Assembly (NCBI GenBank): GCA_963920705.1
Contig: OY987225.1
Location: forward strand, 7,080,175-7,144,174
DNA from: Odiellus spinosus
Lineage: Eukaryota; Arthropoda; Arachnida; Opiliones; Phalangiidae
Length of the DNA: 64,000 nt
Direction of reading: 5' to 3'
Shown here: positions 5,984 to 52,651 of the stretch, piece after piece
Position numbering within the stretch: the first letter of the stretch is position 1
Layout of the letters: each line of letters opens with the position of its first letter
Notes under the pieces: generated by a model
The model's database searches: none
What the model was told of the DNA's origin: nothing
The model's input: only the letters and a program-made list of their open reading frames with translations
Translations under genes and position numbers: made by a program

Positions 5984-5999
5984 CCACGCTCTGCTACCA
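5984..5999 (-). promoter_or_regulatory. Primer-binding site of copia E
   Basis: The minus strand reads TGGTAGCAGAGCGTGG directly next to the 5' LTR. The first 12 bases are complementary to the 3' end of animal initiator tRNA-Met, including its CCA tail. The same site occurs in copia C and in the copia remnant at 19920-19935. This fixes the inner edge of the 5' LTR at 6000. Confidence 0.85.
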
Positions 6000-6295
6000 T
6001 GATGAGGTCTCGTGTGTGCTACCATTAAATCGATCAACGTTGTAGTTAATTAAAGTCTTTAATTAAATTCGATAAAACATTATAACTTGTTAATATAACA
6101 ATGGTAAACTAATGTTATTATAAACTAGATCACATAACTGACTTAATAGATGACTGGTCTGTAAGGAGACTGAGGAGAGACTGACTGTAGAATAAATTTG
6201 AGTGGCCCTAAAAAGAAATCAACTTTCTCTGCCAGTAGGTGGCGCTAATATAAAATGACCTTTGAAACCAAACATGTAAAAGCAATAATAGGTCA
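6000..6295 (-). repeat. 5' LTR of copia E
   Basis: A 296-bp direct repeat of 1239-1538, upstream of gag in minus-strand reading. It presumably holds the promoter, but I see no certain TATA box. The outer edge is followed by taaaa, which is not the sequence flanking the other LTR. Confidence 0.9.
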
Positions 6296-20768: not shown

Positions 20769-20917
20769 GGGTCCTTGGTTGATTCTTAAATCTTAATCAA
20801 TCGGGTATTGATTGATAACTTTTTACTTTGTGTTTGGTTGCCAAATTGAATTACTTCGATTTGGGGTCACCCCTTTCAAAAATTCTAAAGAAACGGTTAC
20901 AATTTGAACGTGCAACG

Positions 20918-21236
20918 TGGGTTCTTAATTTTGCCTTGGGGGCATCCGCGTTCAATAAATAATTAAATAAGTACTTCTTTTTAAAGAATAAAAAAAATAC
21001 TAAAGATTTAATTTTCAATTTTTCTCATGACGAGAAGCGTTTACATTTTACATCTTTCTTTTAAAACCGTCCCAACAAGAATGATCTTCTTTTCCTCTCG
21101 GTTTTTCACACGAGAGCGAAAAGATTCACCTCTCCCCTCTTTTGACCACATGTCAATCAATCACATGTCACTTCCAATCCCCTACACTCCTTTTTCATGC
21201 AGGTGGTCCCTTATATGTTTACACATCGTCGTTACA
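20918..21236 (-). repeat. 3' LTR of gypsy A
   Basis: 319 bp, with TGGGTTCTTAATTTTGCC at the low-coordinate edge and CATCGTCGTTACA at the high-coordinate edge. AACG stands just before it and also 7 bp further out, so the duplication could be placed in two ways; equal LTR lengths favour 20918. A purine-rich tract (GCGGAGGGGTGT on the minus strand, about 21238-21249) borders its inner edge and is the likely polypurine tract. Confidence 0.9.
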
Positions 21237-21467
21237 ACACCCCTCCGCTAAAGTGTGTTTTACCCTCATGAAACCACTTTATGTGCCTATAAACATATAG
21301 CCACCAAAAATTTCCAACAACAAATTAATACCCATAATACAAACAAAAAAAAAAAAAAAAACAAGGTTACATATGATCCTATACAGAATAAAACATTTTT
21401 TTTTTTTTTTTAACATAGAAATATAACGTCAATTGTGAATTATTTAATACATATTTCAAATTTCTAT
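21237..21467. other. 3' untranslated segment of gypsy A
   Basis: Between the integrase stop and the 3' LTR. It contains A and T homopolymer runs (about 21343-21361 and 21395-21410) and the polypurine tract. No open frame. Confidence 0.7.
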
Positions 21468-26155: not shown

Positions 26156-26408
26156 GTTTTTCCCGCTTCTTAACTCAATTTTTATATTCTAAGGTAAATA
26201 TTTGTACGTATAGAAATTGGTTTTGTACTTTACCCTACGTTTCTCCATTCCTCAAGGATATCACACTACACTATAATGTTTAATTAAATGTTCCGCACTT
26301 TCGTCCTTGGCTATACGTTGGGTAGGTATTCTCTTGAATTATGATTGACTCCGCTGGCTTGGTCCTTTCCTCAGCGTCGTCCGTGATTCGATGCGGTGAT
26401 CTTTCTAC
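26156..26408 (-). other. 5' leader of gypsy A, part 1 (continues at 37940-38389)
   Basis: Untranslated leader between the Gag start and the insertion point of gypsy B. CGCTGGCTTGGTCC...CAGCG near 26350-26380 resembles the 59-bp leader repeats at 37941-38160 on the far side of B, confirming continuity. The last four bases, CTAC (26405-26408), are the duplicated target of B. Confidence 0.8.
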
Positions 26409-26757
26409 TGTAGCAGACGAAGTTTTAGTAGTTACAACTTTCACCGTTTTTGGCGCTACAGTCACCAAGGACGATGTAAGGAGTTAAAGATCAGCTGAAA
26501 GATGGTCAGTCAAAAAGTGAAGCTAGAGGATAGAAGTTAGGAGAAAATAAGTTTGGTTTAAAAAAGATAATCATTGGAGATAGATAAAAAGGAAATGCAC
26601 TCTTCCTCTCAGGACTTATTGAATTTATTTAAAGTGAGTCTAATTTAATTTAAAACCTAGCCTAAAGTTAAATATATATATATATATAGATACGAGCCAC
26701 TGCCAAGGGTTAGTGACGGCCCTAAAGTATTTCTATTTATATTACCTAAACGTTACA
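26409..26757 (+). repeat. 5' LTR of gypsy B
   Basis: 349 bp, TGTAGCAGACGAAG to CTAAACGTTACA. A TATATATATATATA run at about 26672-26689 is a plausible TATA region. The matching site in the 3' LTR is where copia C inserted. The next bases (26758 on, TTGGTGATAGAGGTGG) are where a primer-binding site is expected; I could not match the tRNA. Confidence 0.93.
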
Positions 26758-26858
26758 TTGGTGATAGAGGTGGAGGCTACAGGCTTCTGGGTTTTATTTT
26801 TTTTCTGTTTTTATTGTATTTTGGTGTTTTACTTTTTTCATTTAATGCGTTTTTAGTT

Positions 26859-26891
<33 letters not shown>

Positions 26892-26948
26892 GATTCTTTT
26901 TTTACTTTTTTCTTTAGCTAATTTTATGATTCCTTGTTTTGATATGGA
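26758..26948 (+). other. 5' leader of gypsy B
   Basis: Untranslated. It contains the presumed primer-binding site at its start and a long T tract (about 26860-26889), then ends at the Gag ATG. Confidence 0.7.
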
Positions 26949-27902
26949 ATGCCTCTAACTCGTGCTAGCGCTCTTCGTGCTCGTAGTTTTAGTGTGAATG
27001 ATTTACCGCTCTCGCCCCCACCTGCCAAACCGTTAGCTTCCCCACCTTGTGTTCCTAAAGATTCTATAGACGAATTTAACGATTTTTTAGATCAGTTTTC
27101 CATCTCTACCGTTATGCCTCATACAGGTGCGACTGCCTCGAGTCCTACGGACATGGCTGCTTGTATTGCTTTGATGGCGAAAAATGTTGACTTGTTGAGC
27201 CAGTCTGTTAGTCAACCTAGGCCTAGGTATAACATCCCCACCCCTACTTTTACTTTTTCTGGTTCTCGTCAAGAAAATCCCTTACGTTTTATTAAGGATC
27301 TAAAAAAATTTTGCGTTTCGGAAAATTTTGGTATTAATATTTTGTTACAAAAACTTCCCGTTTTACTTAAAGGTAGTGCTGAGACTTGGTGGGATACTCA
27401 GACTTTCTCTTCTTTCTCATCTTTTGAAACTGCTTTTCTTAACCGATACTTTACTTCCGATTTCAAACGAGCTTTAAAACAACAACTTTTACACCGTCGT
27501 CAGGCCCCTGGAGAGGACCCTGAAACCTTTATTAGTGATATTGTTAGTCTGAAAAGCCAGCTTCCTGTTCCTTTATCAGACGAGGATATTTTGGACTTGG
27601 TTTATGAGGGTTTACATAGAGACTTAGTTCAACATATTAACTTTCGCTTTTGCACAAGTCTGTCTATTCTTGAAGAAGAGATCTCATATGCTCGTCGCCT
27701 TCTTACCCGTATGGCGCCTTCGACAGCTCCACCCGTTTTTAGGCATCCTCCGCCTACGGCTCCGGGCTCATTCCCTGTTACCCCTGGTTCTTCACAGCCT
27801 AGCAGTCCTATTTGCTGGACATGTAATACGGTTGGTCACGTATCCAAATTTTGTCCAAACCGATCTTCGTCAAAAAACTTTCAGGGCCGAGCGGGAGTTT
27901 AG
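26949..27902 (+). CDS. gag: Gypsy B Gag
   Basis: 317 codons from ATG 26949. A proline- and serine-rich start is followed by a capsid-like region with PTPTFTFSGSRQENPLRF and ETWWDTQTFSSF, and by one CCHC zinc knuckle, CWTCNTVGHVSKFC (289-302). The frame ends in TAG at 27900-27902, inside the loop of the predicted frameshift-stimulating stem. The frame is intact. The product would be the structural particle protein; the downstream Pol is in the -1 frame. Confidence 0.9.
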   Translation: MPLTRASALRARSFSVNDLPLSPPPAKPLASPPCVPKDSIDEFNDFLDQFSISTVMPHTGATASSPTDMAACIALMAKNVDLLSQSVSQPRPRYNIPTPTFTFSGSRQENPLRFIKDLKKFCVSENFGINILLQKLPVLLKGSAETWWDTQTFSSFSSFETAFLNRYFTSDFKRALKQQLLHRRQAPGEDPETFISDIVSLKSQLPVPLSDEDILDLVYEGLHRDLVQHINFRFCTSLSILEEEISYARRLLTRMAPSTAPPVFRHPPPTAPGSFPVTPGSSQPSSPICWTCNTVGHVSKFCPNRSSSKNFQGRAGV

Positions 27903-30295
27903 ACCCCTCTTGCTCAGGGCCTTCGTCTACCCATTTTTTTCCTTTTACTAGGCCTTCTCTCACCCCCACTAAGAGTTTCCATCCAAATATACTTAATATG
28001 CTTTTTAATTTACCAACACTTTCTGCTCATATTTCCGTTGTTTTACCAACTGGTCGTACTTTACCTTGTTTGGTCGATTCGGGTTCAGATTTTTCTCATT
28101 TTAACGAAGAGACTTGGACTGTTCTGTTTCCTGATTGGACCCCGTCCTTAAACCGTCCGCCTGTAACTATGGCTGATGGTTCTTCGCAAGTTTTGTTGGA
28201 TACACGTCGGCTCACAATTAAGATTCAGAATCACCCGTTTTCTAATGACTTTTCCGTAGTTGAAAATTTGGTTGAACCTTGTATTCTTGGCCGTGATTTT
28301 TTAATTAATCATGCGGTCAAGTTGGATTATGGTTCTGGCACAGTTACTCTGGGTAAACGATCACAGATTTTGATCTCTTTTGATAGCTGCCACTCCGACC
28401 CTCTCCCACCTTGTGATGTAGATCTTGAGACTGAAATAGACAAGGCGGTATCTCGTACCTCTTTGTCGGTGGCGCAGCGTCACGATTTACAATGCCTCTT
28501 GCGTCAATTTCCTTCTGTGTTTTCTTTGAAGCCCGGTTTAACATCGATCACTCGCCATGTCATTAACACTGGTAATGCCGCACCTATTGCCTCTAAACCT
28601 TATAGAGTTTCTAGGTTAAAAGAACGCCTAATCGAACGTCACATCGATGAAATGCTCGAGAATAATATTATCGTTCGTTCACAGAGTCCTTGGGCATCTC
28701 CAGTGGTGGTTGTCCCAAAAAAAATCCCGTTGCATGATTGTGATGAAAATTCTCCAGTAAGTTCGTTTAGCCGGTTTTGTGTTGATCTTCGCCGCCTTAA
28801 TGCTGTCACTGTTCGGGATCCATATCCTATCCCACGGATTGATGATCTTATAGATGTTTTGGGTCAACCTACCTTTATCACGACTTTGGACCTCCATTCC
28901 GGTTTCTGGCAGGTTCCAATGGATCCCGAAAGTCAGGCTAAAACATGTTTCACTACCCATTATGGTAATTTTGAATTTTTACGTATGCCTTTCGGTCATG
29001 TGTATTCTCCATCAACATTTCAGCGTATGATGCAGGAAGTGTTACATGATCGCCGGCATTACAATACAGAAGTTTATTTTGATGATGTTTTAACGGCCCA
29101 TGGGGAATGGCAACAACATCTTTCTGCTCTTCATTATATCTTTTCTCGTTTAGCCGTGGCAAATCTTACAGTCCGTTTGGACAAATGTGATTTTGCCAAA
29201 TCCGAGGCCAAAATTTTAGGTCACATCCTTAGTTCCGCTGGTGTCAGTATCGATCCTCAGAAACTCGCTGCTGTACGTGACTTTCCAGCCCCAAGAAATG
29301 TGAAGCAGTTGGAACGATTTCTGGGACTTATGGGCTGGCATCAGAAATTTATTCCTTGTTGCGCTGACCTAGCCCAACCACTTTATAGTCTGCGTCGCAA
29401 ATTCAAACGATGGCATTGGACTAATGACCATCAATTGGCCTTTGATTCTTTGAAGTCTGCCCTTTCTCTCTCTACATCTAAGGACGATTGCCTATTTCTC
29501 TTAACAACTGACGCTTCCGAAGTTGGTTTGGGCGCTATGCTTTCCCAGGTCCAGGAATCTCAAGAGGTTCCCATCGCTTACCTAAGTAGAGTCTTAAACT
29601 CTGCCCAGCGAAACTACTCTGCTACAGAAAAAGAGTGCCTTGCTGTTGTATGGGCTGTGGGGAAGTGTCGTCATTTTTTGGAAGGTCGTCATTTTAAGAT
29701 CTATACTGATCATAAGGCTCTTTGTTGGCTTATGAATCTACGGGACCCTCAGTCACGTTTAGCGAGATGGGCCTTATTGCTACAGGATTTTGATTTTGAA
29801 ATCCTCTATAAACGTGGCTCGGTTAATGTGGTTGCGGATGCTTTGTCCCGGGCCCCAATTGAATCTCCTTCCCCTTTTATGGATGATCAGAGTGACGTTA
29901 GTGGTGACGATCTGGGTTCTAATACTGTTATATTTTCGTCCAAACACGGTGGTAATATTTGTGCTGTAAGGGCCTGTATTGACATTTCGGATGTAGAGAT
30001 GTCTCCGTCTACATTGTCTCGAAAGGAGATAAGAGATCACCAAATTAAAGATTCAAAATTTGGGAGTATTTACGAAGCTTTGACTCCTGGTCATCTAGCA
30101 CAACACCCTCTTCCCGATTTGCATCAATATGCTATACATGATAATATTCTGTACCGGAAATTGGCACCCTCGGTTTTCAAGATTGTACTTCCCAGTACAT
30201 TAATATCTAAGGTACTTACACTTATCCATGACCATCAGTGTTCTGGTCATCTTGGTGTAAAGAAAACTTGTCAACGTGCTCAGTTCCAGTTTTAG
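27851..30295 (+). pseudogene. pol: Gypsy B Pol, 5' part: protease, RT, RNase H
   Basis: 814 codons counted from an internal ATG; the real entry is the -1 frameshift at 27872-27878. Protease DSG is canonical (76-78), with ILGRDF at 145-150. RT has YFDD (409-412) and an atypical FGHVYSPSTFQ where FGLxNAPSTFQ is usual. RNase H starts at TDAS (553-556). The frame stops at TAG 30293-30295, within the integrase zinc region, where a Y/F-W pair is normal; it resumes in the same frame nine bases later. I take this as a nonsense mutation, since readthrough at this spot would be unusual. Confidence 0.9.
27872..27915 (+). promoter_or_regulatory. -1 ribosomal frameshift signal, gypsy B gag/pol
   Basis: The heptamer A AAA AAC (27872-27878) is in the correct phase with Gag codons TCA AAA AAC. 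After a 10-base spacer, GAGCGGGAG (27889-27897) can pair with CTCTTGCTC (27907-27915) over nine pairs, two of them G-U, with a nine-base loop that contains the Gag stop. Pol lies in the -1 frame. Heptamer, phase, frame and a downstream stem agree with known -1 signals of retroviruses; activity is inferred. Confidence 0.75.
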
Positions 30296-30304
30296 TGGCC
30301 AAAA

Positions 30305-31729
30305 ATGAAATCTGATATCACTAAATATGTACAAAGCTGCTTGATATGTCAGCAAAGGAAACCGCGAAATACTTTGAAACCTGGTCCTATGCAGTCAACC
30401 GTTGTCGATCGCCCTTGGTCAATGGTTGGCGTGGATTTGATGGGACCCCTTCCTATTAGCACTAACCGAAATCGTTTTTTACTAGTTTTTACGGACTATT
30501 TTTCTAAATGGGTTGAGTTTGTTCCGTTACCAATTTCAACTGCTTCGACGATCTCTGATGCTTTGGTTTCCCGAGTGGTTCGGCAATGGGGTAGCCCAGT
30601 TCGCCTTCTCAGTGATAATGGTCCTCAGTTTATTTCCGAGTTATGGCGTACCACATGTGAAAGAATGAATATACATTGTACATATACTTCTCCATATCAT
30701 CCCCAAACTGATCAGACTGAGCGGGTTAACCGTGTTGTAGGTGATATGATCAGTTCTTACGTGGGAAATAAACATTCAACATGGGATGATAATTTACCTT
30801 TATTTCAGTTGGCGTATAATATTGCTCCTCATGAGTCCACCGGTCAGACCCCCTTTTTTATTAATCATGGACGTGAGGCACGTTTGCCATGGTTAGAAGC
30901 AGCGTTCAATCCTCATTTACAAGGCGATCCAGAACAAGTAGAGGAATATATACATGATGTTATTGCTCCTATGCAGACTATATTGGATGATGTTCGTCAT
31001 AATATAACTCGATCCCAGGAGAAACAACAGCGGTATTACAATAATTCGCGGATCGTTTGGGAACCTGATGTTGGTTCACTAGTTTGGAAAAAAACCCATC
31101 CCGTTTCACAAGCAGCCGCTGGGTATTCAAAAAAATTGGCACCACGTTGGGACGGGCCATATGAAATAATAGATATTTTGAATCCACTAGCCCCTGTGTT
31201 GAAAGATGTTCGTACTGAGGAAAATGTAGGTTCTTGGCACGTGGATCAACTTAAACGTTATTATAGTCGGGATGCTTCTTTGCCAGTATTCCCTGATGAC
31301 CCATTGCCCATTATAGCAAATTCACCGGATAATATTACACTGGCTGGAACTGCTTGCTTACCCGATACTATAATAACGATCCCTGTAGACTCAAATTTTT
31401 CTTCTCCTGTTCGGGATTCCACGGTGCCAAAGTCTATCACTCCCCTTAAGGATGACAATCCTTTAGTCCAACCTTTTCGTTATGGTTGGCATCGAAGGGT
31501 CGTCACTCGTGCCACTGTTAGACCTGGTGGTCCGGTAGCTGATGTTTATTATTTTTCCCCTTTTGGTCAGAAATTTCGCTCTAAACCTCAAATAATGGCT
31601 TACCTATCTTCTCTTGATGATCGGATTACAGATGGTCATGGCCTCGGTGAAGCAAATTTTCTTTTCACCCCCGTCTTGATTTATAAACCCCCTTTTGAAA
31701 TCCTCCGCTCGGCTTTTGTTCGCGATTAA
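30305..31729 (+). pseudogene. pol: Gypsy B integrase with C-terminal MBD-like domain
   Basis: 474 codons in the same frame as the upstream Pol, after the TAG. The second half of the zinc region has C12 and C15. Catalytic acids: D44 (GVDLMGPL), D103 (LSDNGPQF) and E138 (QTERVNR). A GPYEI module lies near residue 285. After a low-complexity linker, residues about 392-455 form an MBD-like segment, and the protein ends 19 residues later. In chromoviruses this position holds a chromodomain. The integrase core looks intact, so the element was lost mainly through the nonsense codon. Confidence 0.9.
31478..31672 (+). other. MBD-like (methyl-CpG-binding) domain coding segment in gypsy B
   Basis: The segment opens YGWHRRVVTRATVRPGG, continues with DVYYFSPFGQKFRSKPQ and closes with FLFTP. 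The DVYYFSP-x-G-x-KFRSKPQ core is nearly the same as that of animal MBD2/3 proteins, including the Asp and Tyr and the FRSK arginine that contact methyl-CpG in known structures. The R-x-K-S-G loop is altered (R-A-T-V-R-P-G-G). It is more like MBD2/3 than the copia versions are, which suggests a separate capture. Confidence 0.8.
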
Positions 31730-31734
31730 TTTTT

Positions 31735-31749
31735 ACAGTTTTTTTTCAG
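31735..31749 (+). promoter_or_regulatory. Candidate 3' splice site before ORF3
   Basis: CAG followed by TTTTTTTTCAG ends ten bases before the ORF3 ATG at 31759. A pyrimidine tract plus CAG at this spot is what a spliced subgenomic ORF3 message would need, as for env of gypsy-type errantiviruses. The donor is not identified. Confidence 0.35.
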
Positions 31750-31758
31750 ACCACATAC

Positions 31759-32412
31759 ATGCCTGTCTGTGCCAGGGAATTTGTTAGGGTCCGTCTTACA
31801 CCTTCTAAAGTGGAAATACCTGTAGAATTCTGTATACCCTCGGTTTCTTTTCTTACACGTGCTGCGGCGGATTTTTTATCGCTATCCATTTTGCCTATGA
31901 GTCCGCCGGACCTCCAGGAACTTTCTACTTTATTGGCTCATCCGGTTCTTGGTGCGATCAAAGATCTCGAGGTATATTGGACGCAGACTGACTTTCTGCT
32001 TCCTATTGTGGCAGTTTGTGATTTTGATACCCGTCCCTTCATCGCGTTTGACACCCCTTCTTTGGCCGCTATGGGTCTTATGTTAGATTTCCGACGCGGT
32101 ACTTATAGGGTTGATCCCGTACCTTTGCGTCATTCACCTCCCCTCCCATTTACATTTTTGCCTAACCCATCTACCCCTTTGTGTTTTCGTTGTCGTCAGC
32201 GTCATCACGTTCAAAATTGTCCGAAGAAGCGCAAGATATCTGCAAGTTGTAGACCAAACGTTCCCTCATCCGTTCTACAAGTTCTACAAGAGTCTAACCC
32301 GGTTACAGTTTCACCCACTACTTACGCCCTGTCTGACATCTCGTCTTCCGATTTTCATTCTACTGACGATGACTCCGTCTTGGTTTTGCGCCTTCCTGAT
32401 TCTCCGTTATAA
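31759..32412 (+). CDS. Gypsy B ORF3: retropepsin-like fold without catalytic Asp, plus zinc knuckle
   Basis: 217 codons, 29 bases after the integrase stop, in the position of env. There is no signal peptide, transmembrane helix or furin site, so it is not an envelope. Residues 10-118 follow the pattern of the element's own protease: IPVEFCIPSVSFL stands where LPCLVDSGSDFSHF would, and FIAFDTPSLAAMGLMLDF stands where CILGRDFLINHAVKLDY would. The DSG triad is replaced by CIP. A zinc-knuckle-like CFRCRQRHHVQNC (142-154) is one residue shorter than CX2CX4HX4C. The tail is Ser/Thr/Asp-rich. A duplicated protease-nucleocapsid module is my best reading; function unknown. Confidence 0.7.
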   Translation: MPVCAREFVRVRLTPSKVEIPVEFCIPSVSFLTRAAADFLSLSILPMSPPDLQELSTLLAHPVLGAIKDLEVYWTQTDFLLPIVAVCDFDTRPFIAFDTPSLAAMGLMLDFRRGTYRVDPVPLRHSPPLPFTFLPNPSTPLCFRCRQRHHVQNCPKKRKISASCRPNVPSSVLQVLQESNPVTVSPTTYALSDISSSDFHSTDDDSVLVLRLPDSPL

Positions 32413-32566
32413 TGGTTTATATTAGTTCGAAAAAAAAAAAAAAAAGGAGGGAGAAGAGAAGAAGAAAAAGCAAACAAAAAAAACCTGATTTTTTTTTTGT
32501 ATTTTGTCTTTTTTTATTCTTGTTGTTTTTTTTATATAAATAAAATTCTTTTAAAGGGGGGAAGAG
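32413..32566 (+). other. 3' untranslated segment and polypurine tract of gypsy B
   Basis: An A/G-rich run (32430-32475), then a T-rich run, then AAAGGGGGGAAGAG directly before the 3' LTR, the expected polypurine tract. No open frame. Confidence 0.8.
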
Positions 32567-32829
32567 TGTAGCAGACGAAGTTTTAGTAGTTACAACTTTC
32601 ACCGTTTTTGGCGCTACAGTCACCAAGGACGATGTAAGGAGTTAAAGATCAGCTGAAAGATGGTCAGTCAAAAAGTGAAGCTAGAGGATAGAAGTTAGGA
32701 GAAAATAAGTTTGGTTTAAAAAAGATAATCATTGGAGATAGATAAAAAGGAAATACACTCTTCCTCTCAGGACTTATTGAATTTATTTAAAGTGAGTCTA
32801 ATTTAATTTAAAACCTAGCCTAAAGTTAA
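32567..32829 (+). repeat. 3' LTR of gypsy B, first part (continues at 37850-37935)
   Basis: Matches 26409-26671 except for one base by eye (GGAAATACAC here against GGAAATGCAC). It ends at GTTAA (32825-32829), the 5-bp sequence duplicated by copia C. The remaining 86 bp lie on the far side of copia C. Confidence 0.93.
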
Positions 32830-33050
32830 TATTGGTAGTTGACTAAAACTTTGACCTAACTTCTGATTGGTTCATGAACCCACCTGAGTTTTCCTGTCGT
32901 CTGCTCTACAACTAAAACCTTCACTTCCTCTCTAGTCCCAGTTGGGTGTTGTTGATATATCGTTTTAAGTTATGAGTTTTAATTAATAAATAGTTTTAAC
33001 AATGTTTTATGATTCTAAGATTCTTTCACTGTTTAAAAAAATATCCAACA
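32830..33050 (+). repeat. 5' LTR of copia C
   Basis: 221 bp, from TATTGGTAGTTGAC to AAAATATCCAACA. The right end CCAACA predicts TGTTGG at the left, but both LTRs start TATTGG, so the terminal dinucleotide is TA and not TG. The flanking GTTAA fixes the boundary. Confidence 0.93.
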
Positions 33051-33052
33051 AG

Positions 33053-33068
33053 TGGTAGCAGAGCGTGG
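33053..33068 (+). promoter_or_regulatory. Primer-binding site of copia C
   Basis: TGGTAGCAGAGCGTGG, two bases after the 5' LTR. Twelve bases are complementary to the 3' end of initiator tRNA-Met. Same site as in copia E and in the remnant at 19920-19935. Confidence 0.87.
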
Positions 33069-33211
33069 TTAACAGTGAATGTTGAACTTACATCATTTGA
33101 TTTAGCCAACCGAGGCTTAGTGATGGATCATAGGAAGTTTTGACAAGTCGTGTTTTGACTTTTGCGACCCCATAAACATTTTCGGAAATTCAAGCGTGAG
33201 AGAAATCCAAG

Positions 33212-33628
33212 ATGGCGGAACGAGAAGCCATTTTTTATTCTGGGCAAGTTGAAAAATTGAATTCGGAAAATTATAAAAATTGGAAGTACGAAATGGAGAT
33301 GGTTTTGAGGGACAAAGGTTTATGGGAAATTGTAAACAAGACAGAAACTGAGCCAGCATCAACAGCGGAAGCAGATGTTAAGGCCAAGTATAATTTAAGA
33401 AAATCCAAGGCTTATTCAACAATTGCATTGGGAATAACTATTGATTTAAGAAGTATAATAGCAGAAGCTACAACAGCTAGTCAGGCGTGGGACAAGTTAA
33501 GGAGCGCTTTTCAACCGACGTCAAGGGCTCGAATTGGTGTTTTAAGGAATTTTATACAATTGAATATAAAGAAGGTGAAAGTATGCCATCATTTATTGGA
33601 AGACTTTATAGTATCAAGAATCAGTTAA
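33212..33628 (+). pseudogene. gag: Copia C Gag, N-terminal part, cut by a frameshift
   Basis: From ATG 33212 (MAEREAIFYSG), 138 codons. Gag-like up to SRARIGVL, then out of frame. Homology with copia E Gag passes to the -1 frame at about 33541-33550. The shift is in mid-capsid, not at a gag/pol border, and no canonical slippery heptamer is in phase here, so I read it as a one-base indel. It is surprising in an element with identical LTRs. Confidence 0.88.
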
Positions 33629-36600
33629 CAGAAGCTGGTGAAACTATAGCGGAGAAAGACATAGCCTATCAATTGATATCATCATTACCTGAAATTTATG
33701 AACCTTTAGTCCAACAGATTTATCAATTTACAGACACTGAGTTTACACCAACAAATATAAAACAGAAGCTTATTGGAGAGTACGGCAGACAGATTGAAAA
33801 GAATCGTATATCAGAAAATCGCGCCGCTGCTGACGTTTTAATGGCTCAAGCTAAAAGCCAACGGGGAAGAGACGAAGGAAGTAAGAGTTGGAGATCTCAA
33901 CCAACTGGATACCGAGATAATCAACAGAGATTTTTCCAAGGCACGTGTTTTAATTGCCAAAAACGTGGGCACAAATCTTCCGAATGTACGAAACCATCGG
34001 CGAACGATAACCAAAGAGAAGGTCACGATATGAGAGAAACTAGAGACCGAAGAGAAAGGAAGGATATAAGATATCTGAAAGATCAAAGGGAGAAACGAGA
34101 TTTCAGAGATCAGCAAGGAAGGAAAAAGCAAGAGAAACATTGCCTATTTGCATCTGCCTTGGTATCATCGACAGCAACAGCGAATGATGATTGGATAATC
34201 GACTCAGCGGCCACACACCACTTCTGTAATCGGCGTGAGTGGTTTTCTACTTATAATGCATTAGAAGCTGAGGCAACATGTGGCGAGGGGAAATCTAAAA
34301 TTAAAGGAGTTGGAGATATTAGAATTCAAGTTGGCGGAAAAACTGGAGAGATGATAAGGCTTAAGGAAGTAGTTCATACACCTGGCATGAGACGCAACTT
34401 GATCTCTGGACGAATAATTGATCAATCGGGCTACAAAGGAATTACAGTAAATTCGAAATTTACCGCTTACGACAGAAATGGGGATTACGCGTTTGAAGCA
34501 AAATTAACAAAAGACAATTTCTATACGCTACAAGACGCTGAAGTAATAACAAAAGAAGACTCAATTAATGAACTTCACGAATATAATTCATCTTCTATGA
34601 AGATATCAACAAATACCATCGATTTATGGCATAAACGTCTCGGTCACGTAAACGAGGCAGATTTGAATTTCATGGCAAAGAACCAAATGTTACACGGACT
34701 ACGCCAAATCCAAGGAGAGCTAAATACATGTATATCCTGCAGATTGAGCAAGAGCATAAAACAAAGTCATCCAAATATAGGCGAAATTAAAAGTAAAGAA
34801 CTTCTGGAGCTTGTTCATTCAGACGTTTGGGGACCAGCCCGCATTACATCGGCAGGGGGAGCGAGTTATTATATAACATTTATCGATGACTACAGTAGAC
34901 ATATTTGGATTTACATTATGCATAAGAAGAATGAAGCTTTCGCATGTTTTGAGAAATTTAAACGGCTCGTTGAAAACAGAAGCAACAAGAAAATTAAAAG
35001 TCTTAGAACGGATAATGGACTTGAATATTGCGCGAAATACTTTACCAAGTTTTGTGAAGAAGCGGGAATCGAACATCAAAGAACAAATACGTATTCACCA
35101 CAAATGAATGGCGTTGCTGAAAGGGTAAACCGGACATTATTAGACATGGTACGAACTTTATTGGAGGATGCTAAAATGCCTTCAAACTTATGGGCCGAAG
35201 TGGTAGTTACAGCTGCATATTTAAAGAATCGCTTACGTCATTCATTACTCGGCAAGAAAGTTCCTGCTGAATTTTGGATCCATACTAAACCAAGTGCTAA
35301 CTACCTCAAGAGATTCGGTTGCCTAGCTTTCGTAAACATTCCAAAACAACAACAAAGGAGTAAACTACACAATCGAGCAAAACTGGGAGTATTAATTGGT
35401 TATGCAGCTCATACGAGGGGATATCGAATCTTTTACCCAGAACAACTAAAAGTAATAGAGACAAAACACGTTACATTCGACGAAGAACGATTGGGACTTG
35501 AATATCTGAAACATTCAAGAAGAGAATTTCCTGAGAAAGAAGTATTCTGGTCCAGAGACGATGAAGAAGATGATGAAATAGTCGTAAATAATAAAGCACT
35601 TCAGGAAGAAATCCTTTTACCAGAAGAGGCTTTGGAAGGAATTGCTACTAATGAAGATACCGAGAATAAAGTAGAAGAACCCATCGTAAACAAACGAAGC
35701 ATACAAGAAAAATACATGGATTTGGGTCCAAAAATTAAGGAAATTCCGGTAACTTGGAAACGAAACGTAACCATCCGAAAGAAAGGGCAGACTAAAGGCC
35801 GAGCTGATATAATCTACACTGATGGTGAAGGAAACTCTTTTCGATCAGTTCCAGACGTTATGAAACATTTAGTAAAGAACAATCTCCCGTACGACATTAA
35901 AATGTTTGATTTCAGTACAAAGAATCAAACCGCAACATCAATCTTAACATCTGTTAGTGAGGATGATATATCGGATATTTTTGAAACAAACTGTATAGAA
36001 GCTGAAATACCCAAGAACTTTATGGAAGCAATGAAGTCTCCTCAGAAGCGAGAGTGGCGAAAGGCTATGGATGAAGAAATTTCCACTCTGCAAGATAGAC
36101 AAGTGACTGAAGTGGTAAAAAGGCCCGAAACTAAGAAACCTTTAGGGTGCAGATGGGTATATACAATAAAACGAGATCATAATAACAAGATCATCCGATA
36201 TAAGGCGAGAATTGTTGCGCAAGGTTTCGGTCAAATAGGAGGAGTCGACTACGATGAGACATTTTCACCAGTAGTAAATTTTTCAATAATACGGTTCTTC
36301 ATTGCCCTATTCATAACGACACTTGGATGGGTACATAATCATTTCGACGTGAAGAACGCCTACTTATATGGAACACTCGATCACGAAATATTTATGAGCC
36401 AGATACCAGGATACGAAGAAGCCAATTCAACAACGCATTGTCTCAAACTTAAAAAGGCGTTATATGGTCTGCAACAAAGTGGCCGTCGTTGGTTCATGGA
36501 GTTAGACAGAACATTCAATCATTTAGGATTCTCAAAATTCCTCGGTACGAACTGTGTATATTACCTACCATTTAAAGCAATTATACTCGTATATGTTGAC

Positions 36601-37563
36601 GATCTCGTAGTTCTTGGAAAAGATAATGGAACGTTACAAGATGTCTTTAATAATTTATCAAAAATCTACGACCTGAAAAATTTAGGACCTATACGAAAGA
36701 TTCTGGGTGTAGAATTTGAAGAAAGAGCAAATGGTGGATTAAAATTACACCAAACCACTTATATTAATCAAACTGCGAAGAAATTTAATATAAATGCAGA
36801 CGAACCAGTAAGCCTACCCATGAACGCGAGTGCCATCTTAACAAGAAAGGATTGTCCAACAACTGAAGAAGAAATTGAAGAAATGAAGAAGTATCCTTAT
36901 AGATCATTAATCGGTAGTCTTCTTTTTCTTGCGCAGCGAACAAGGCCGGATATTCTGTTCTCAGTAGTAGCATTATCGCAATATAATAGTAATCCCGGAT
37001 ACGTGCATTGGCGACATTTATGTCAGTTGACAAGATATGTTATAACTACAGCGGACCACGGCCTAATATATAATCGAGAATCAAAAACAAATTTAACCTT
37101 ATATTGCGACAGTGACTGGGCAGCGGATAGAGACACTCGTCGTTCAACGTGCGGTTTTATAACTTTCGTGGGGGCATCACCAGTTACCTGGAGGTCAATA
37201 AAGCAAAAATCCGTTTCATTGTCCACCATGGAGGCCGAGTATGTGGCGATGTCTGAAGCAGTCAAAGAACTTGCATGGTTATCCCCCCTTATCAAAGAAC
37301 TTGAATTATTTAACATAAAGTTACCAACCCCGATAATAGTTAGCGATAGCCAATCTGCAATTGGTTTTGCGAGTGATTGTTTAGAAAACCAACGATCAAA
37401 ACATATCGATATCCGTTATCATTATGTAAGAGAAAAATTAAATGATAAATTGTTTGAATTGAAATTTACCCCATCGAAATCTAATGTCGCGGATATTTTT
37501 ACAAAAATATTAATTAAATCAAATTTTGGAAATTGTTATCGGATGTTGCAACTTAAAGAATAA
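33487..37563 (+). CDS. gag-pol: Copia C Gag-Pol polyprotein (rest of Gag, protease, integrase, MBD-like, RT, RNase H)
   Basis: 1358 codons open without a break, but its true N-terminus is in the other frame (33212). CCHC knuckle CFNCQKRGHKSSEC at 154-167. The protease site reads DSA (239-241) where DSG is normal. Integrase has WHKRLGH, CISC, SDVWGP, RTDNGLEY and GVAERVNRT. The MBD-like segment is at about 753-809. RT has YVDD at 1036-1039. RNase H has CDSDWAADRDT (from 1207). Apart from the Gag shift and the DSA triad, all catalytic motifs are present, and the copy could have moved with proteins supplied in trans. Confidence 0.93.
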   Translation: MGQVKERFSTDVKGSNWCFKEFYTIEYKEGESMPSFIGRLYSIKNQLTEAGETIAEKDIAYQLISSLPEIYEPLVQQIYQFTDTEFTPTNIKQKLIGEYGRQIEKNRISENRAAADVLMAQAKSQRGRDEGSKSWRSQPTGYRDNQQRFFQGTCFNCQKRGHKSSECTKPSANDNQREGHDMRETRDRRERKDIRYLKDQREKRDFRDQQGRKKQEKHCLFASALVSSTATANDDWIIDSAATHHFCNRREWFSTYNALEAEATCGEGKSKIKGVGDIRIQVGGKTGEMIRLKEVVHTPGMRRNLISGRIIDQSGYKGITVNSKFTAYDRNGDYAFEAKLTKDNFYTLQDAEVITKEDSINELHEYNSSSMKISTNTIDLWHKRLGHVNEADLNFMAKNQMLHGLRQIQGELNTCISCRLSKSIKQSHPNIGEIKSKELLELVHSDVWGPARITSAGGASYYITFIDDYSRHIWIYIMHKKNEAFACFEKFKRLVENRSNKKIKSLRTDNGLEYCAKYFTKFCEEAGIEHQRTNTYSPQMNGVAERVNRTLLDMVRTLLEDAKMPSNLWAEVVVTAAYLKNRLRHSLLGKKVPAEFWIHTKPSANYLKRFGCLAFVNIPKQQQRSKLHNRAKLGVLIGYAAHTRGYRIFYPEQLKVIETKHVTFDEERLGLEYLKHSRREFPEKEVFWSRDDEEDDEIVVNNKALQEEILLPEEALEGIATNEDTENKVEEPIVNKRSIQEKYMDLGPKIKEIPVTWKRNVTIRKKGQTKGRADIIYTDGEGNSFRSVPDVMKHLVKNNLPYDIKMFDFSTKNQTATSILTSVSEDDISDIFETNCIEAEIPKNFMEAMKSPQKREWRKAMDEEISTLQDRQVTEVVKRPETKKPLGCRWVYTIKRDHNNKIIRYKARIVAQGFGQIGGVDYDETFSPVVNFSIIRFFIALFITTLGWVHNHFDVKNAYLYGTLDHEIFMSQIPGYEEANSTTHCLKLKKALYGLQQSGRRWFMELDRTFNHLGFSKFLGTNCVYYLPFKAIILVYVDDLVVLGKDNGTLQDVFNNLSKIYDLKNLGPIRKILGVEFEERANGGLKLHQTTYINQTAKKFNINADEPVSLPMNASAILTRKDCPTTEEEIEEMKKYPYRSLIGSLLFLAQRTRPDILFSVVALSQYNSNPGYVHWRHLCQLTRYVITTADHGLIYNRESKTNLTLYCDSDWAADRDTRRSTCGFITFVGASPVTWRSIKQKSVSLSTMEAEYVAMSEAVKELAWLSPLIKELELFNIKLPTPIIVSDSQSAIGFASDCLENQRSKHIDIRYHYVREKLNDKLFELKFTPSKSNVADIFTKILIKSNFGNCYRMLQLKE
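35743..35915 (+). other. Divergent MBD-like segment in copia C
   Basis: Residues about 753-809 read IPVTWKRNVTIRKKG, then ADIIYTDGEGNSFRSVPD, and close with MFDFS. The position between integrase and RT is the same as in copia E and the landmarks are in the same order. The core is weaker: YYxxP is lost and FRSK reads FRSV. The arginine of FRS and the RKKG loop remain. Shared location indicates that the domain was in the common ancestor of the two copia elements. Confidence 0.7.
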
Positions 37564-37611
37564 TGTTAAATTAATGTTAACTGTCGGATTTAATATAAAT
37601 ATATTTATGTC

Positions 37612-37623
37612 AAAGAGGGGGAG
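37612..37623 (+). promoter_or_regulatory. Polypurine tract of copia C
   Basis: AAAGAGGGGGAG immediately before the 3' LTR; the usual start of plus-strand DNA synthesis. Confidence 0.85.
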
Positions 37624-37844
37624 TATTGGTAGTTGACTAAAACTTTGACCTAACTTCTGATTGGTTCATGAACCCACCTGAGTTTTCCTGTCGTCTGCTC
37701 TACAACTAAAACCTTCACTTCCTCTCTAGTCCCAGTTGGGTGTTGTTGATATATCGTTTTAAGTTATGAGTTTTAATTAATAAATAGTTTTAACAATGTT
37801 TTATGATTCTAAGATTCTTTCACTGTTTAAAAAAATATCCAACA
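37624..37844 (+). repeat. 3' LTR of copia C
   Basis: 221 bp; I see no difference from 32830-33050. Followed by the GTTAA duplication and then by the rest of the gypsy B LTR. Confidence 0.94.
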
Positions 37845-37849
37845 GTTAA

Positions 37850-37935
37850 ATATATATATATATATAGATACGAGCCACTGCCAAGGGTTAGTGACGGCCC
37901 TTAAGTATTTCTATTTATATTACCTAAACGTTACA
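37850..37935 (+). repeat. 3' LTR of gypsy B, second part
   Basis: Matches 26672-26757 except for one base by eye (CCCTTAAG here against CCCTAAAG). With 32567-32829 it makes 349 bp, the length of the 5' LTR. Confidence 0.93.
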
Positions 37936-37939
37936 CTAC

Positions 37940-38389
37940 CTCGCTGGCTCGCTCCGTTCATCAGCGTGGTCCTCGTGGCTCCGGTCTTTGTTGGTAACGT
38001 CGCTGGCTCGATCCGTTCTTCAGCGTGATCCTCGTGGCTCCGGAGTCCGGTCTTTGTTGGTAACGTCGCTGGCTCGATCCGTTCTTCAGCGTGATCCTCG
38101 TGGCTCCGGTCTTTGTTGGTAACGTCGCTGGCTCGATCCGTTCTTCAGCGTGCTCCTCTGCCTTTTTAATTACCGTTCATCAGTTTAAACGAATATATAT
38201 ATATATTTATATATCTATAGCTGGCTCGATCCGTTCATCAGCTTCTATCGTTAACAGGCTCTTCTTGGATTATTCTTTACTCCATTTTCTTTTTATTCAT
38301 CAGCTTATTTTCGGCTGGCTAGTCTTCTTTCGGGTTTCCAAGTCTCATAATTTAAGACTGCCCCGCGCCTCCACCAATTTATTGCAAAG
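37940..38389 (-). other. 5' leader of gypsy A, part 2, with 59-bp tandem repeats
   Basis: Three full and two partial units of a 59-bp repeat (about 37941-38160 and 38219-38245), built on TCGCTGGCTCGATCCG and GTGGCTCCGGTCTTTGTTGG. One unit has an 8-bp internal duplication (GGAGTCCG). The leader joins the 5' LTR at 38390. On the minus strand a TGGTGGAGGCGCGGGG sequence lies 12 bases inside the LTR and may be the primer site; the tRNA is not identified. Confidence 0.75.
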
Positions 38390-38708
38390 TGGGTTCTTAA
38401 TTTTGCCTTGGGGGCATCCGCGTTCAATAAATAATTAAATAAGTACTTCTTTTTAAAGAATAAAAAAAATACTAAAGATTTAATTTTCAATTTTTCTCAT
38501 GACGAGAAGCGTTTACATTTTACATCTTTCTTTTAAAACCGTCCCAACAAGAATAATCTTCTTTTCCTCTCGGTTTTTCACACGAGAGCGAAAAGATTCA
38601 CCTCTCCCCTCTTTTGACCACATGTCAATCAATCACATGTCACTTCCAATCCCCTACACTCCTTTTTCATGCAGGTGGTCCCTTATATGTTTACACATCG
38701 TCGTTACA
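38390..38708 (-). repeat. 5' LTR of gypsy A
   Basis: 319 bp; the one difference seen from 20918-21236 is AAGAATAATC here against AAGAATGATC. Followed by AACG (38709-38712), the target duplication. Confidence 0.92.
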
Positions 38709-39574
38709 AACGCACCCTTTATTTAGAATAATTCTGCCTCAAAAATTAAACTGTTGAAACAAACAGCTTGAGCCATGGAATAAGCGAACCGCTTCAAGAA
38801 ATGTATGTAATTGACGTAGCATTGACATCGTTTTCTCTCTCTCTCTGTCGAACCAAAGGTGTTTAACGTGCATTTTGGTGCATAGTCGCGTGGCGCCTCG
38901 ACATCCCACATACGCTAAATTCTAGCTACCTTAGCTGCAGCTCTATAATATCGGATTTTCTTGGACAAGAGAGGCGAAGAGAGAGGAAACTTGAATTCGC
39001 CAAAAAAGATTCGCAATTAGTGTATGGCCAAATGGGGGAAAATAAAAACGAGGAATTGGAGCAGAAAGCAGTTTTAGATGCTATGAACGACACGAATTAT
39101 AACGTGTGGTCACTCTTCCATCTCTGGTTATTTCATGCTTGAGCTCAGTCAATTTCTGTCTTTTAAGGCTTGCAGCCAAAAATTGCAAAACTTTACACTT
39201 AATTGATATTTTTATTAAAAAAAAAAAACAGTAGTTCCCTAAACTTAACCATACCATGGTCTATAAATATCGCGTAAAGGCTTACATTTCAGTGCGCTTC
39301 TTCCTAGGTGATAATATTTCTTCGACATCGGAAGAAACCTTTCTACCTCTTCTAACAACACTCATTATTTTGATAACTTGGATTTAAAGTTCTCAATTCC
39401 TTTGTTTACAAAACTACAAACATGAACGACAATACTTCAATTCTTTGGTACTACATGACAAAAACCCTTTGTACGTTAAGAGCAGACGATACACTCATAT
39501 TCAGACTTCAGAGTGGGAAATAAAAGTAAGGGTTAATAATATAAAAAGCTATAAACCCTGACTCGCCTAACCTT
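38709..39574. other. Non-coding stretch between gypsy A and the LINE
   Basis: No gene recognised. A short CT microsatellite lies at about 38832-38846 and an A run near 39218-39229. The rest is unassigned AT-rich DNA. Confidence 0.5.
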
Positions 39575-41488
39575 CTTCTTCTTCGTATTTGCACCTAAGT
39601 AGTGAGGGACCACTTTATGGCGCCGACAGGAGATGTAGCGCGGTTGAGAAGGAGTGCCGAGAGGTTTTGAGGATCAAGTCATTGGGGAGAGAGTTCCAGT
39701 GTGGGTTCACACGCTGGGCAAAATGGTGTTTGCGGAATGATGTATTGTAGGCTTTGTAGCGCGGGAGGAATATTTTCTGGGAGTGCCCTCGATTTGAGCT
39801 GCGATGGGCGGCGCATTGAATAAAGAAGTCGGCAGAGGGAATGGGGGAGCTGTTTTGCAGAATTGAGTGGGTTGTGATGAGGTCGGTATGTTGGTGGCGT
39901 AGGGAGATAGGGGCTATGTTCAGAAATTATCTTCGGTCGACTGCGGAGCGGTGTTTGAGGAGTGGGATGAGTTTTGTGAGGCGATTCACTGCCTTGTCGA
40001 GGAGGGTGATATCTTGTTTGAGGTGGGGTGTCCAAAATGGGGAGGCAAAGTCGAGGAGCGGTAGGATAAACGAATTGTAGACGGTTTTGATGAGCGTGGG
40101 AGTGATGCGCGTGAACGAGCGACGCGTTAGTCCGGTGAACATGTTTATTTTTTTCGAAACAGCCCGACAATGGTCCGAAAAAATAAGTTTATCATCGACG
40201 AGAACTCCGAGGTCCCGCACTACCGTTGTCGAGGGTAGAGGGAGGCCGCATGTTGAATACACGTGACGGGCGTTTTTTGAGCCGAGGTGGAGGACCTGGG
40301 ATTTGGCAGCGTTGAACGACAGACCGGAGTCTGCGGCCCAAGCTGCGCGGCGTCAAGGTCTAGTTGGAGGGAGGTTGTGTCTGCAGGGGAACGGATTATC
40401 TGGGAGAGCTTTGTGTCATCCGCGAAGAGACTCGGAAGGGCAGATTTGATGTGGCCGGGAAGGCAGTTTATGAAAATAGCGAACAGTAAAGGTGCAAGGA
40501 CGCTCCCTTGGGGGACACCGCTGGTGACATTACACGGGGGGGGAGGATACCCCAAGAAGGACCACCTGTTGGGTACGGCCAGATAGAAAGTTTACTATCC
40601 ATCTGAGGAGGGCACCCTGGATCCCGGCGTCATAGAGACGCGAGGTTAGCTTGTCGTGTGGAACTGTGTCGAAGGCCTTGCGGAGATCCAGGTAGATAAC
40701 ATCGACGCTGTGACCTGCATCAAGGCCTTTTGTCCAGTAGTTTGAGGCGGTGAGGAGATTTGTGGTGCAGGAGCGACGTGGTAGAAAGCCATGTTGGTAA
40801 GGGGAGAAAAATTTGAAGTTTCCAGGAAGTCGTAGATTTTCTTGTGAAGGAGGGATTCGATGGTTTTCACCACTTGACAGGTGAGGCTGATAGGGCGGTA
40901 GTTTTCAGCCATTTTTGGGTTGCCTTTTTTGGGAATAGGCGTGACATTTGCCTGGCGCCAGGCTGGTGGTATGTCGCCAGTGGTGATGCTGAGGTTGAAG
41001 ATATGGGCCAGAGGCCAGGCTAGTTCGTAAGCCAGGGTGCGGAGGAGGTTGGGATGGAGGCCATCTGGACCGGGGGCTTTGTTAGGTTTGAGACGTTGGA
41101 GTGCTTGGCGGACTTCAATACATCGAAACTGAATTGGTTCAGAGAGGGTAGCCTGTTGCTCTGCGGGAGCGGGTTTTGGCGGTGCGTGGGGGGGGGGGCA
41201 GCTTGGAATGTAGAGGCGAAGAATTCATTTAAAGCGTTGGCGATGTTGTGGTCGTCCGTAGTGAGGGTGCCAATTACAAGGAGGCTCGAAACTCCATGGT
41301 GGGATTTGCGCTTGCGGTTAATGAAGCCAAAGAAAGCTTTAGGGTTGGTACGCATGTTCTTTGTAATTTTTGCTTCATGACGAGCTCGGTCTTGGCGTAT
41401 AAGAGTGGTGAAAGCGTTACGGGCTGTCTTGTTGGCGTTATGGTAGGGGGTGCTTGCCGGGGTGGGGAGATGACGGTGGCGAAGATAC
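39575..41488 (-). mobile_element. CR1/jockey-like LINE, 3' part (continues at 58120)
   Basis: On the minus strand the RT part of a non-LTR retrotransposon ends in a short GAA-repeat tail (39575-39592). The last four bases at the other side, ATAC (41485-41488), are the duplicated target of gypsy D; the same LINE resumes after D at 58120. Broken reading frames show an old copy. Confidence 0.85.
39655..41488 (-). pseudogene. LINE reverse transcriptase, broken by frameshifts
   Basis: Read on the minus strand. 41020-41488: the linker after the endonuclease (FFGFINRKRKSHHGVSSL, ANALNEFFASTF). 40646-40912: RT motifs NYRPISLTCQVVKTIE, then a frameshift. 40220-40555: TSGVPQGSVLAPLLF and the catalytic FADDTKL. 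39927-40262: the C-terminal part (LGVLVDDKL, LLDFASPFWTPHL). 39679-39926: a short C-terminal end in another frame. GVPQGSVLxPLLF and FADDTK are typical of the CR1/L2/jockey group. At least three frameshifts make it a pseudogene. Confidence 0.87.
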
Positions 41489-43261
41489 TGTAGTGCTTAT
41501 TTTAGGGTCCTTTGGACTTTTATTCAGTGTTCCTTTAATTTCAATTCAGTGTTCCTTTAATTTCAAGATCCCATTTCCTTTATTGTACCAAGTTAAAAAT
41601 AGTTTAGTCGAAGGTCACTCTGAATTTTGAGTTACTTTTATTTTTTTTTAAGTCATAAAGTTAATTATAGGGTCAGGCATTGGAGCTATTTCGGAAAAGG
41701 GTAAAAATATATATTGAAGGCTATATCTGGGTTAGAAAACATTTTCCCAAATAAAATAAGTAACAAAAGGCAGGAAAGGATTTAAAGCCGTAACCCGCGC
41801 GCTGGTCGCACGGGACGGTAGATCCTGATGGCCTCCAATGGATCACATTTGACAGGTAGGGGATTTCTGGGAGTCGTGGCCACGACGCCTTTGATGTCCT
41901 TTACTTAAAATACCTTTCCTTTTAAAAATCATCTGAAGAAATAGCGAACGATTCATTGATAGTTTTATTACCCATAATTATATTCCCATTTTCAACTTAC
42001 TCCCAAAAACCGAAGTTTACCAAATGCCGCGAAGCTTAATTGTGAAAGCTTTGAAAATAATTTTATCTGTATTTTGTTATCTCGGAACTTCCTAAGAAAA
42101 GGGTTCCTTTACTTTTATGTATTGTATGAATAGAATTTTAGGATGTTGGTATCTGGCGATACCTGTGCAAAATAATTAAGTGATACAATCAATCACATAT
42201 TTTATGAGATCTGGCGATGCCTGGGTTTTTCATCTTGTAATGGGAAAATTGGTAAAGCGACCAGGAGAAAGTACAACCAAAAATGGAAGGAACAAACGCT
42301 GCGGATTGGTTGGACGAAAACACGTGATAAACGTCCAAGCCAATCAGGTCCAACAGGGTTACCTGACAGCCACATGGGTGACCCTTAAAAAGAGAAACTT
42401 TAATGAAAAGAAAGGATATACTTGACTGGGAGACTAAGAGTCAAGGTTCACGAGTTTCTTAAGAAGGCGGCGAAAGGAGTAGAGTCGCGGACTTAGATTA
42501 TTTCTAAAAACGATGGCGAAAGTCCAGGCGTAAGCGACCGCGTACGAGTAAAAAGACAGTCCGAAACTGCAACATGAGGAGCGCGGCTCGAATCGGAATT
42601 AAAACTGAAAGCGCGCTTCCGGTTCTCCTAAATTAAACGGCCGGTCTTCACGGTAACCGCAACGTATGCGTATCGACAATAACCAGGGTCGCCAGATCAG
42701 TGATAAGTTTTTGTAATTAAGGATGCATGTAAATATTATTTTGGGGGTTATGGGGTTCATTTAATTAGTGTATTTGTTTTATATTATCGAGTTATGTTTT
42801 TACCGCAGCTTCTTAAAAGCTGTATGATGATTTTGTGAAAAGAGTGAAAGGTTATGTTATGTTTTGTTTAACAGTTAAATATGAACATTAAGTTTATATT
42901 ATTAAATATGAGCATTGGTAAACTTCCGTCTATTTCCTACTAACCTAAGCTGATATCCCTTAGACTATATTTTAATTTAATTTCCACATGTTTCGCTCGC
43001 TATCTCCTAATAGTGAAAAAGGTACGCGAGGTGATACCCGGTTAAAGCTTAGCAAAGACTAAGGAGTTTGATGTGTCGTAACAGTAACTAAGACGAAAGG
43101 TTTTTATAAGATATAATTAGTTTTTAGGATTTCTCTTTCAAGTTTGAAACAAGGGCTCGCGCGGTTGAGCACCTTAAGGTTTATTTTAAAGGTTTAAGTT
43201 TTTAAAGATTGAGAAGGAAGAGAGTCCTAAAGCTAAAAGTCTAGTTAAAAACGCTGTTACA
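41489..43261 (+). repeat. LTR 1 of gypsy D
   Basis: 1773 bp, TGTAGTGCTTATTTTAGGG to AAAAACGCTGTTACA. A 23-bp direct repeat (CAGTGTTCCTTTAATTTCAA type) occurs near its start. It holds an 81-codon open frame (42180-42425) with no recognisable motif, present in all three LTRs; I do not call it a gene. One base after it, TGGGGGCCCCGTGCCGGG (43263 on) is the likely primer site; its first bases resemble the tRNA-Pro site of some retroviruses. Confidence 0.93.
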
Positions 43262-43510
43262 CTGGGGGCCCCGTGCCGGGATCTGTTATTAAAGGTTAAG
43301 TCTAAGGTGTAAGGTTTAGTGGTTTATAAAAGGTTTAAGATTTAAGTTTTTTTTACTGGTATGATATTTCAGAGAAGTACGTTCGCTTAATGTTTACAGG
43401 TTTTATTTGCTTTGAATTTTTTTTATATGATAATAATTAAATAAGTTTTTTTTTTTATTTTTGATAATTTGAGCTTACTTGCGATTTTATAGATTAATTA
43501 GTTTGAGTAT
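43262..43510 (+). other. 5' leader of gypsy D, unit 1
   Basis: Begins with the probable primer-binding site and is otherwise AT-rich, ending at the Gag ATG. The same sequence is at 50691-50939 in unit 2. Confidence 0.7.
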
Positions 43511-45193: not shown

Positions 45194-45222
45194 AAGGGAA
45201 AAAGGCCGACCCGGAACTAAAA

Positions 45223-48702: not shown

Positions 48703-48917
48703 GCTCATATTATTTGTTTTTCTTTTGTTTATTTTCAATTAGAACACCCTGTGTGTAATTTTTTTAAGTTGGATAAGGTTCTAATCCTTGTTTGATATTG
48801 TTGAGGTGCACCTGTAAATATTAAATTTTCGTACGTACGTTTTCCTAGTTTGTTTTATTAACAGTATTTTTCTTAGCTATGGTCTCACGAGGCCGTGACA
48901 CGCTAAGTGGGGGAGAG
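48703..48917 (+). other. 3' untranslated segment and polypurine tract, gypsy D unit 1
   Basis: Short non-coding segment ending in AAGTGGGGGAGAG just before LTR 2, the expected polypurine tract. Repeated at 56132-56346. Confidence 0.8.
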
Positions 48918-50690: not shown

Positions 50691-50939
50691 CTGGGGGCCC
50701 CGTGCCGGGATCTGTTATTAAAGGTTAAGTCTAAGGTGTAAGGTTTAGTGGTTTATAAAAGGTTTAAGATTTAAGTTTTTTTTACTGGTATGATATTTCA
50801 GAGAAGTACGTTCGCTTAATGTTTACAGGTTTTATTTGCTTTGAATTTTTTTTATATGATAATAATTAAATAAGTTTTTTTTTTTATTTTTGATAATTTG
50901 AGCTTACTTGCGATTTTATAGATTAATTAGTTTGAGTAT

Positions 50940-52622: not shown

Positions 52623-52651
52623 AAGGGAAAAAGGCCGACCCGGAACTAAAA

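Follow-up and report, generated by a model that had tools for sequence, protein, structure and literature searches.

An MBD fold at the integrase C-terminus of a Ty3/gypsy element in the harvestman Odiellus spinosus

We analysed a 64,000-nucleotide stretch of the Odiellus spinosus genome (the window; contig OY987225.1) and find that the integrase of one of its Ty3/gypsy retrotransposons, gypsy B, carries an MBD (methyl-CpG-binding domain) fold at its C-terminus. The integrase frame matches Pfam family PF01429 (MBD) with an E-value of 4.9e-10 and 39.3 bits (curated cut-off 21), and the top match of the domain among solved structures is MBD2 (E-value 2.4e-8). Frame 30305–31729 contains, in this order, the rve core, an SH3_Tf2-1 match that remains sub-threshold (25.9 bits, cut-off 30) and the MBD, which thus follows the SH3-like part of the integrase and occupies the slot of the chromodomain in chromoviruses. 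A sequence-only reading of the window had proposed an MBD at this position, 31478–31672; the translation of that interval is as claimed, DVYYFSPFGQKFRSKPQ included, and both the identity and the location of the domain were correct, with the domain itself somewhat longer (Table 1). We found no report of an MBD on an integrase in the literature searched.

A model built from five human MBDs and run over all six frames of the window gives three strong places (60.4, 41.3 and 36.6 bits) and a fourth at 6.0 bits. Across 10 Markov windows no score exceeds 10.7, and the three matches are therefore not due to chance. They correspond to gypsy B and two copia elements, copia-1 and copia-2. In both copias the MBD also forms the integrase C-terminus, since it is located between the integrase SH3 and the reverse transcriptase. 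Neither gypsy A nor gypsy C shows an MBD; this covers all six window frames and, in addition, the integrase frame of gypsy A and the end of one gypsy C copy (of two). The AlphaFold model of the gypsy B domain has a mean pLDDT (predicted local distance difference test) of 55 and is weak outside the core. Nevertheless, in a Foldseek comparison MBD, TAM and SETDB2 chains take ranks 1–38 among the best 50 rows, so that the fold match on which the sequence-only reading had staked the domain is present. The copia-1 model (pLDDT 68.5) finds the same classes of chain at ranks 1–45 among the best 50 rows.

The two arginines and the tyrosine named as critical for methyl-CpG recognition by MBD2 in an excerpt of PMC9520026, whose numbering we follow, are all present in gypsy B. 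The codons aligned to MBD2 are R166 (31508–31510), an aspartate (31541–31543), Y178 (31547–31549) and R188 (31577–31579), and human MBD2 is the single best pairwise match. Judged by these residues, the gypsy B MBD could bind methyl-CpG.

To describe conservation we used a set of 74 rows (including six host domains and the two window copias), reduced to 47 by dropping rows at least 88% identical to a kept row: 22 gypsy, 19 copia (two from the window) and six host. Locus domains below 54 bits and the remaining unclassified loci (see below) were left out. Among the 41 non-redundant element MBDs, the first arginine is present in 22/22 gypsy and 19/19 copia domains, the aspartate in 22/22 and 18/19, the tyrosine in 22/22 and 16/19, and the second arginine in 20/22 and 15/19. 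Copia-2 is one of the exceptions, with an isoleucine replacing the critical tyrosine.

The ratio of nonsynonymous to synonymous substitution (dN/dS) over the MBD is 0.12, 0.13 and 0.13 for gypsy B against three genomic relatives (L014, L015 and L018). Of the values for 15 other gypsy pairs, 13 fall between 0.03 and 0.46 (the highest based on five differences only), the other two being undefined; the four copia pairs give 0.12, 1.14 (five differences) and two undefined values. Pooled pN/pS (the corresponding ratio of proportions) is 0.18 over nine disjoint pairs (seven gypsy, two copia). The gypsy MBDs, including that of gypsy B, are under purifying selection. The MBDs of copia-1 and copia-2 form a gap-free alignment of 60 residues with 43% identity (flanking linkers: 21% and 14%, gaps counted), and synonymous divergence between them is saturated.

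The domain is widespread in the genome (443 Mb, 286 contigs). An MBD family search yielded 415 candidates, of which the best 150 were scored; all 150 exceed the cut-off and 145 have no stop within the match. With the gypsy B C-terminus as query, the best 150 of 358 candidates were scored. Because both lists are capped at 150 and ranked by match, the numbers are minima and good copies are over-represented in them. We chose 78 loci by MBD match (the top eight of the MBD search, the top 30 of the gypsy B search and 40 hand-picked from the two lists for differing scores) and classified them by neighbouring domains. The carriers are 47 gypsy, one gypsy followed by a copia fragment, 23 copia and seven unclassified loci (L003, L019–L021, L040, L042 and L048), in agreement with the sequence-only reading that both superfamilies carry the domain (48 gypsy and 23 copia). 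On sequence grounds L042 and L048 were treated as gypsy in the tree set, L048 being one bit short of the 45-bit carrier cut. L003 belongs to the host: it is a TAM exon of BAZ2 (1417–1752 of the locus; best match BAZ2B, E-value 4.1e-31) with both arginines present. Two further genomic copies of gypsy B have an identical 98-residue C-terminus and longer open frames; in the window copy, a single in-frame stop inside the integrase zinc-binding domain splits 27851–30295 from 30305–31729, and this copy is therefore broken. As a separate observation, many gypsy loci among L011–L063 have a PP-(W/F/Y/L)-E-like motif 3' of the MBD, shortly before the stop.

On balance, we lean towards an explanation in which the Ty3/gypsy lineage of gypsy B gained an MBD fold at the integrase C-terminus that was then held by selection and serves as a tether to DNA or chromatin, with the copia MBD probably coming from another subfamily. 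Its place and the selection on it make a chromatin tether the most likely role of the gypsy MBD. The chromodomain of MAGGY, reported to tether integrase to chromatin (PMC3350952, excerpt), is a precedent for targeting. The gypsy MBD would bind CpG-containing, probably methylated, DNA, and such binding would bias the insertion sites of the pre-integration complex. The presence of the domain at the same spot in two unrelated classes of element suggests that both may use it for insertion-site choice; we infer methyl-CpG-guided integration.

The CpG content of the DNA weighs against methyl-CpG guidance. The observed/expected ratio is 1.03 in the window (no depletion), with a median of 0.86 (0.53–1.12) for 47 gypsy loci and 1.09 (0.77–1.28) for 23 copia loci, and 0.91 at the BAZ2 locus. 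On these ratios, heavy germline methylation is not visible, although depletion would be expected to be small in young elements regardless of methylation. MBD3 binds DNA largely without regard to methylation, and the strongest alternative, possible but clearly less probable than the explanation we prefer, is that the MBD is likewise a plain DNA affinity tag for the integrase. The lack of CpG depletion in the window and at the BAZ2 locus fits such a tag, as do the loss of the tyrosine in copia-2 and the position of the gypsy MBDs on the TAM/SETDB2 side of the tree (below); TAM is not known to read methyl-CpG selectively. The retention of the tyrosine in every gypsy and most copia MBDs, and of both arginines in most, argues against methylation indifference.

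As to origin, trees of the MBD, which rest on only 59–67 columns, separate the two superfamilies. In the 47-row tree, gypsy MBDs and the host BAZ2 TAM are split from copia MBDs and human MBD1-4/MeCP2 with support of 99/97. When BAZ2A, BAZ2B and SETDB2 are added with longer edges (50 rows), all 22 gypsy MBDs fall with BAZ2/SETDB2 and all 19 copia MBDs with MBD1-4/MeCP2 (100/99), with gypsy (93/74) and copia (85/77) each one group, neither starred; removal of two long rows (48 rows) leaves a gypsy/copia split of 99/97. Loop length and flanking motifs also differ between the two sets in the alignment. Either the MBD entered retroelement superfamilies at least twice, or one superfamily passed the domain to the other. 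Separate captures by gypsy and copia are favoured by these data but not proven.

Several results qualify this picture. In the 47-row tree copia does not form a single group and only 16% of bootstrap trees recover gypsy as one, and a tree constrained to gypsy plus all hosts versus copia beats the free search by 2.97 units. The approximately unbiased (AU) test does not reject all gypsy and all copia MBDs as one clade (p = 0.247, 0.142 and 0.107 for 47, 50 and 48 rows) or gypsy B with copia (p = 0.203). Profile scores, for which the depth of the compared sets is unequal, are higher for gypsy–copia (102.7) than for gypsy–TAM (87.4) or gypsy–MBD1-4/MeCP2 (77.7), and gypsy B alone scores 79.7 with copia, 71.7 with MBD and 61.7 with TAM. 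The tests allow, and the scores fit, a single capture followed by passage between superfamilies, for example by template switching of co-packaged RNAs, and an alanine before the conserved aspartate in all three window MBDs points the same way, though the pattern fails across wider element sets. We nevertheless consider a single capture rather doubtful, given the high-support split in the best trees, the differing loops and flanks, and the copia profile, which scores highest with MBD1-4/MeCP2 (117.6; copia–TAM, 71.7). The tree splits favour the independent capture proposed by the sequence-only reading, but the AU tests and the nearness of the gypsy profile to copia keep it from being proven.

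The same reading had likened the gypsy B domain to the MBD2/3 core and made grouping inside MBD2/3, apart from copia, its sign of independent capture; the trees disfavour such grouping. The AU test of gypsy B with MBD2/3 gives p = 0.18 (eight rows), 0.079 (47), 0.046 (50) and 0.00018 (48), of which the first two do not reject; this wide range shows that AU p values are rough here. Once relatives are added, gypsy B and two near relatives join the 19 other gypsy MBDs and not MBD2/3, and descent from MBD2/3 itself is disfavoured. In an integrase tree, 13 MBD-bearing gypsies (the window copy and the 12 of 21 other gypsy rows with enough upstream frame) are separate from the MBD-less gypsy A and gypsy C with 100/98, a tree with only these two MBD-less rows and with three rows less than half filled. 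The correlation between integrase and MBD distances is not significant. A bolder scenario, which we advance only tentatively, is that the two took methylation readers from different host MBD subfamilies, Ty3/gypsy a TAM/SETDB-like one and Ty1/copia an MBD2/MeCP2-like one, at the same integrase spot, and that both radiated widely through methyl-CpG-guided integration.

It is improbable, in our view, that the MBD targets host chromatin factors or the element's own DNA, masking it or recruiting to it, rather than guiding insertion. Purifying selection is silent about function, and host MBD2 and MBD3 work in NuRD (PMC9520026, excerpt), but the covalent, chromodomain-like attachment to the C-terminal end of the integrase, shared by gypsy and copia, would fit targeting better. 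That the MBD match is an accident of chance or assembly, for which we found no supporting point, is refuted by the Pfam and structure matches, the Markov windows, the many genomic copies and carriers and the low dN/dS.

Gypsy B spans 26409–37935, the nested copia-2 included, with the target-site duplication CTAC at both flanks. Its long terminal repeats (LTRs), the duplication and the order reverse transcriptase–RNase H–integrase place it in Ty3/gypsy. Copia-2 sits in the LTR at 32567–37935, an MBD-bearing copia nested in an MBD-bearing gypsy.

Table 1. Coordinates of gypsy B and of the MBD-bearing copia elements in the window
Feature	Position	Strand	Remarks
MBD-like domain, integrase C-terminus, gypsy B	31460–31690	+	Pfam PF01429, structure matches, residue alignment
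5' LTR, gypsy B	26409–26757	+	TG...CA, ends judged by eye; target-site duplication CTAC 26405–26408
gag frame, gypsy B	26949–27902	+	Retrotrans_gag match; zinc knuckle under cut-off
pol frame, gypsy B	27851–30295	+	RVT_1, RNase H, first half of integrase zinc-binding domain; protease match under cut-off; in-frame stop at end
Integrase remainder, gypsy B, same frame as pol	30305–31729	+	rve 30413–30703, SH3-like 31073–31261, MBD last
Extra frame 3' of gypsy B pol, 217 residues	31759–32412	+	no Pfam match; C-x2-C-x3-H-x4-C-like stretch by eye
3' LTR, first part, gypsy B	32567–32829	+	1/263 aligned positions differs from 5' LTR
3' LTR, second part, gypsy B	37845–37935	+	1/91 aligned positions differs; CTAC next at 37936–37939
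Copia-2, nested in gypsy B 3' LTR	32830–37844	+	LTRs 32830–33050 and 37624–37844 identical over 221; duplication GTTAA
MBD of copia-2	35746–35925	+	34.8 bits
MBD of copia-1	3244–3441	-	53.1 bits; element about 1238–6298, minus strand

Elsewhere in the window, gypsy C forms a tandem at 41489–58119 (LTR–internal–LTR–internal–LTR) in which 9202 bases are repeated at a distance of 7429; two stretches that were compared (1773 and 2900 bases) show no difference. The tandem is either very recent or an assembly effect. A direct repeat of 321 bases lies near gypsy A (20917–21237) and behind gypsy B (38389–38709). Frames on the minus strand at 39615–41496 resemble, by eye, a decayed non-LTR reverse transcriptase, a DDE_1 transposase fragment is present at 12598–13167, and a cluster of direct repeats with spacings of 550 to 1554 bases occupies 61176–63988.

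Integrases with a chromodomain serve as the model of how retroelements choose their home by reading histone marks. If our preferred explanation is true, a large, selected integrase family with the fold of a DNA-methylation reader would extend this model to DNA marks. MBD integrases would let one ask, in a natural setting, whether methylated DNA is sought or shunned by transposons, and their natural variants, losses of the critical tyrosine included, could relate reader chemistry to insertion pattern.

Gypsy B resembles chromoviruses in belonging to Ty3/gypsy, in carrying a chromatin reader C-terminal to the integrase core and SH3, and in the likely targeting role of that domain (PMC3350952, excerpt). 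It differs in that the domain is an MBD; no Chromo match was found in gypsy B at E ≤ 0.1, and it is thus not a chromovirus. With MBD2/MBD3 (and MBD1, MBD4 and MeCP2) it shares the MBD core and the critical Arg/Tyr/Arg, MBD2 being its best pairwise match, whereas its MBD sits on an integrase, has another loop and C-terminal part, and belongs with gypsy MBDs that lie elsewhere in the trees. MBD2 and MBD3 have additional conserved domains behind the MBD; in gypsy B no Pfam match to these is seen and the frame stops 37 residues after the MBD match. The TAM of BAZ2A/BAZ2B and the MBD of SETDB2 are tree neighbours of the gypsy MBDs with similar N-terminal and C-terminal edges, but the Asp and Tyr found in most retroelement MBDs are Glu and Cys in the host BAZ2 TAM, these domains are not joined to an integrase, and profile scores do not make TAM the nearest. 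The retrotransposons that captured cytosine methyltransferases (PMC5890265, the main text of which does not contain the terms 'MBD' or 'methyl-CpG') are alike in that retroelements have repeatedly captured DNA-methylation machinery. There, in Symbiodinium and the alga K. nitens, the captured part is a writer enzyme, whereas here it is a reader domain.
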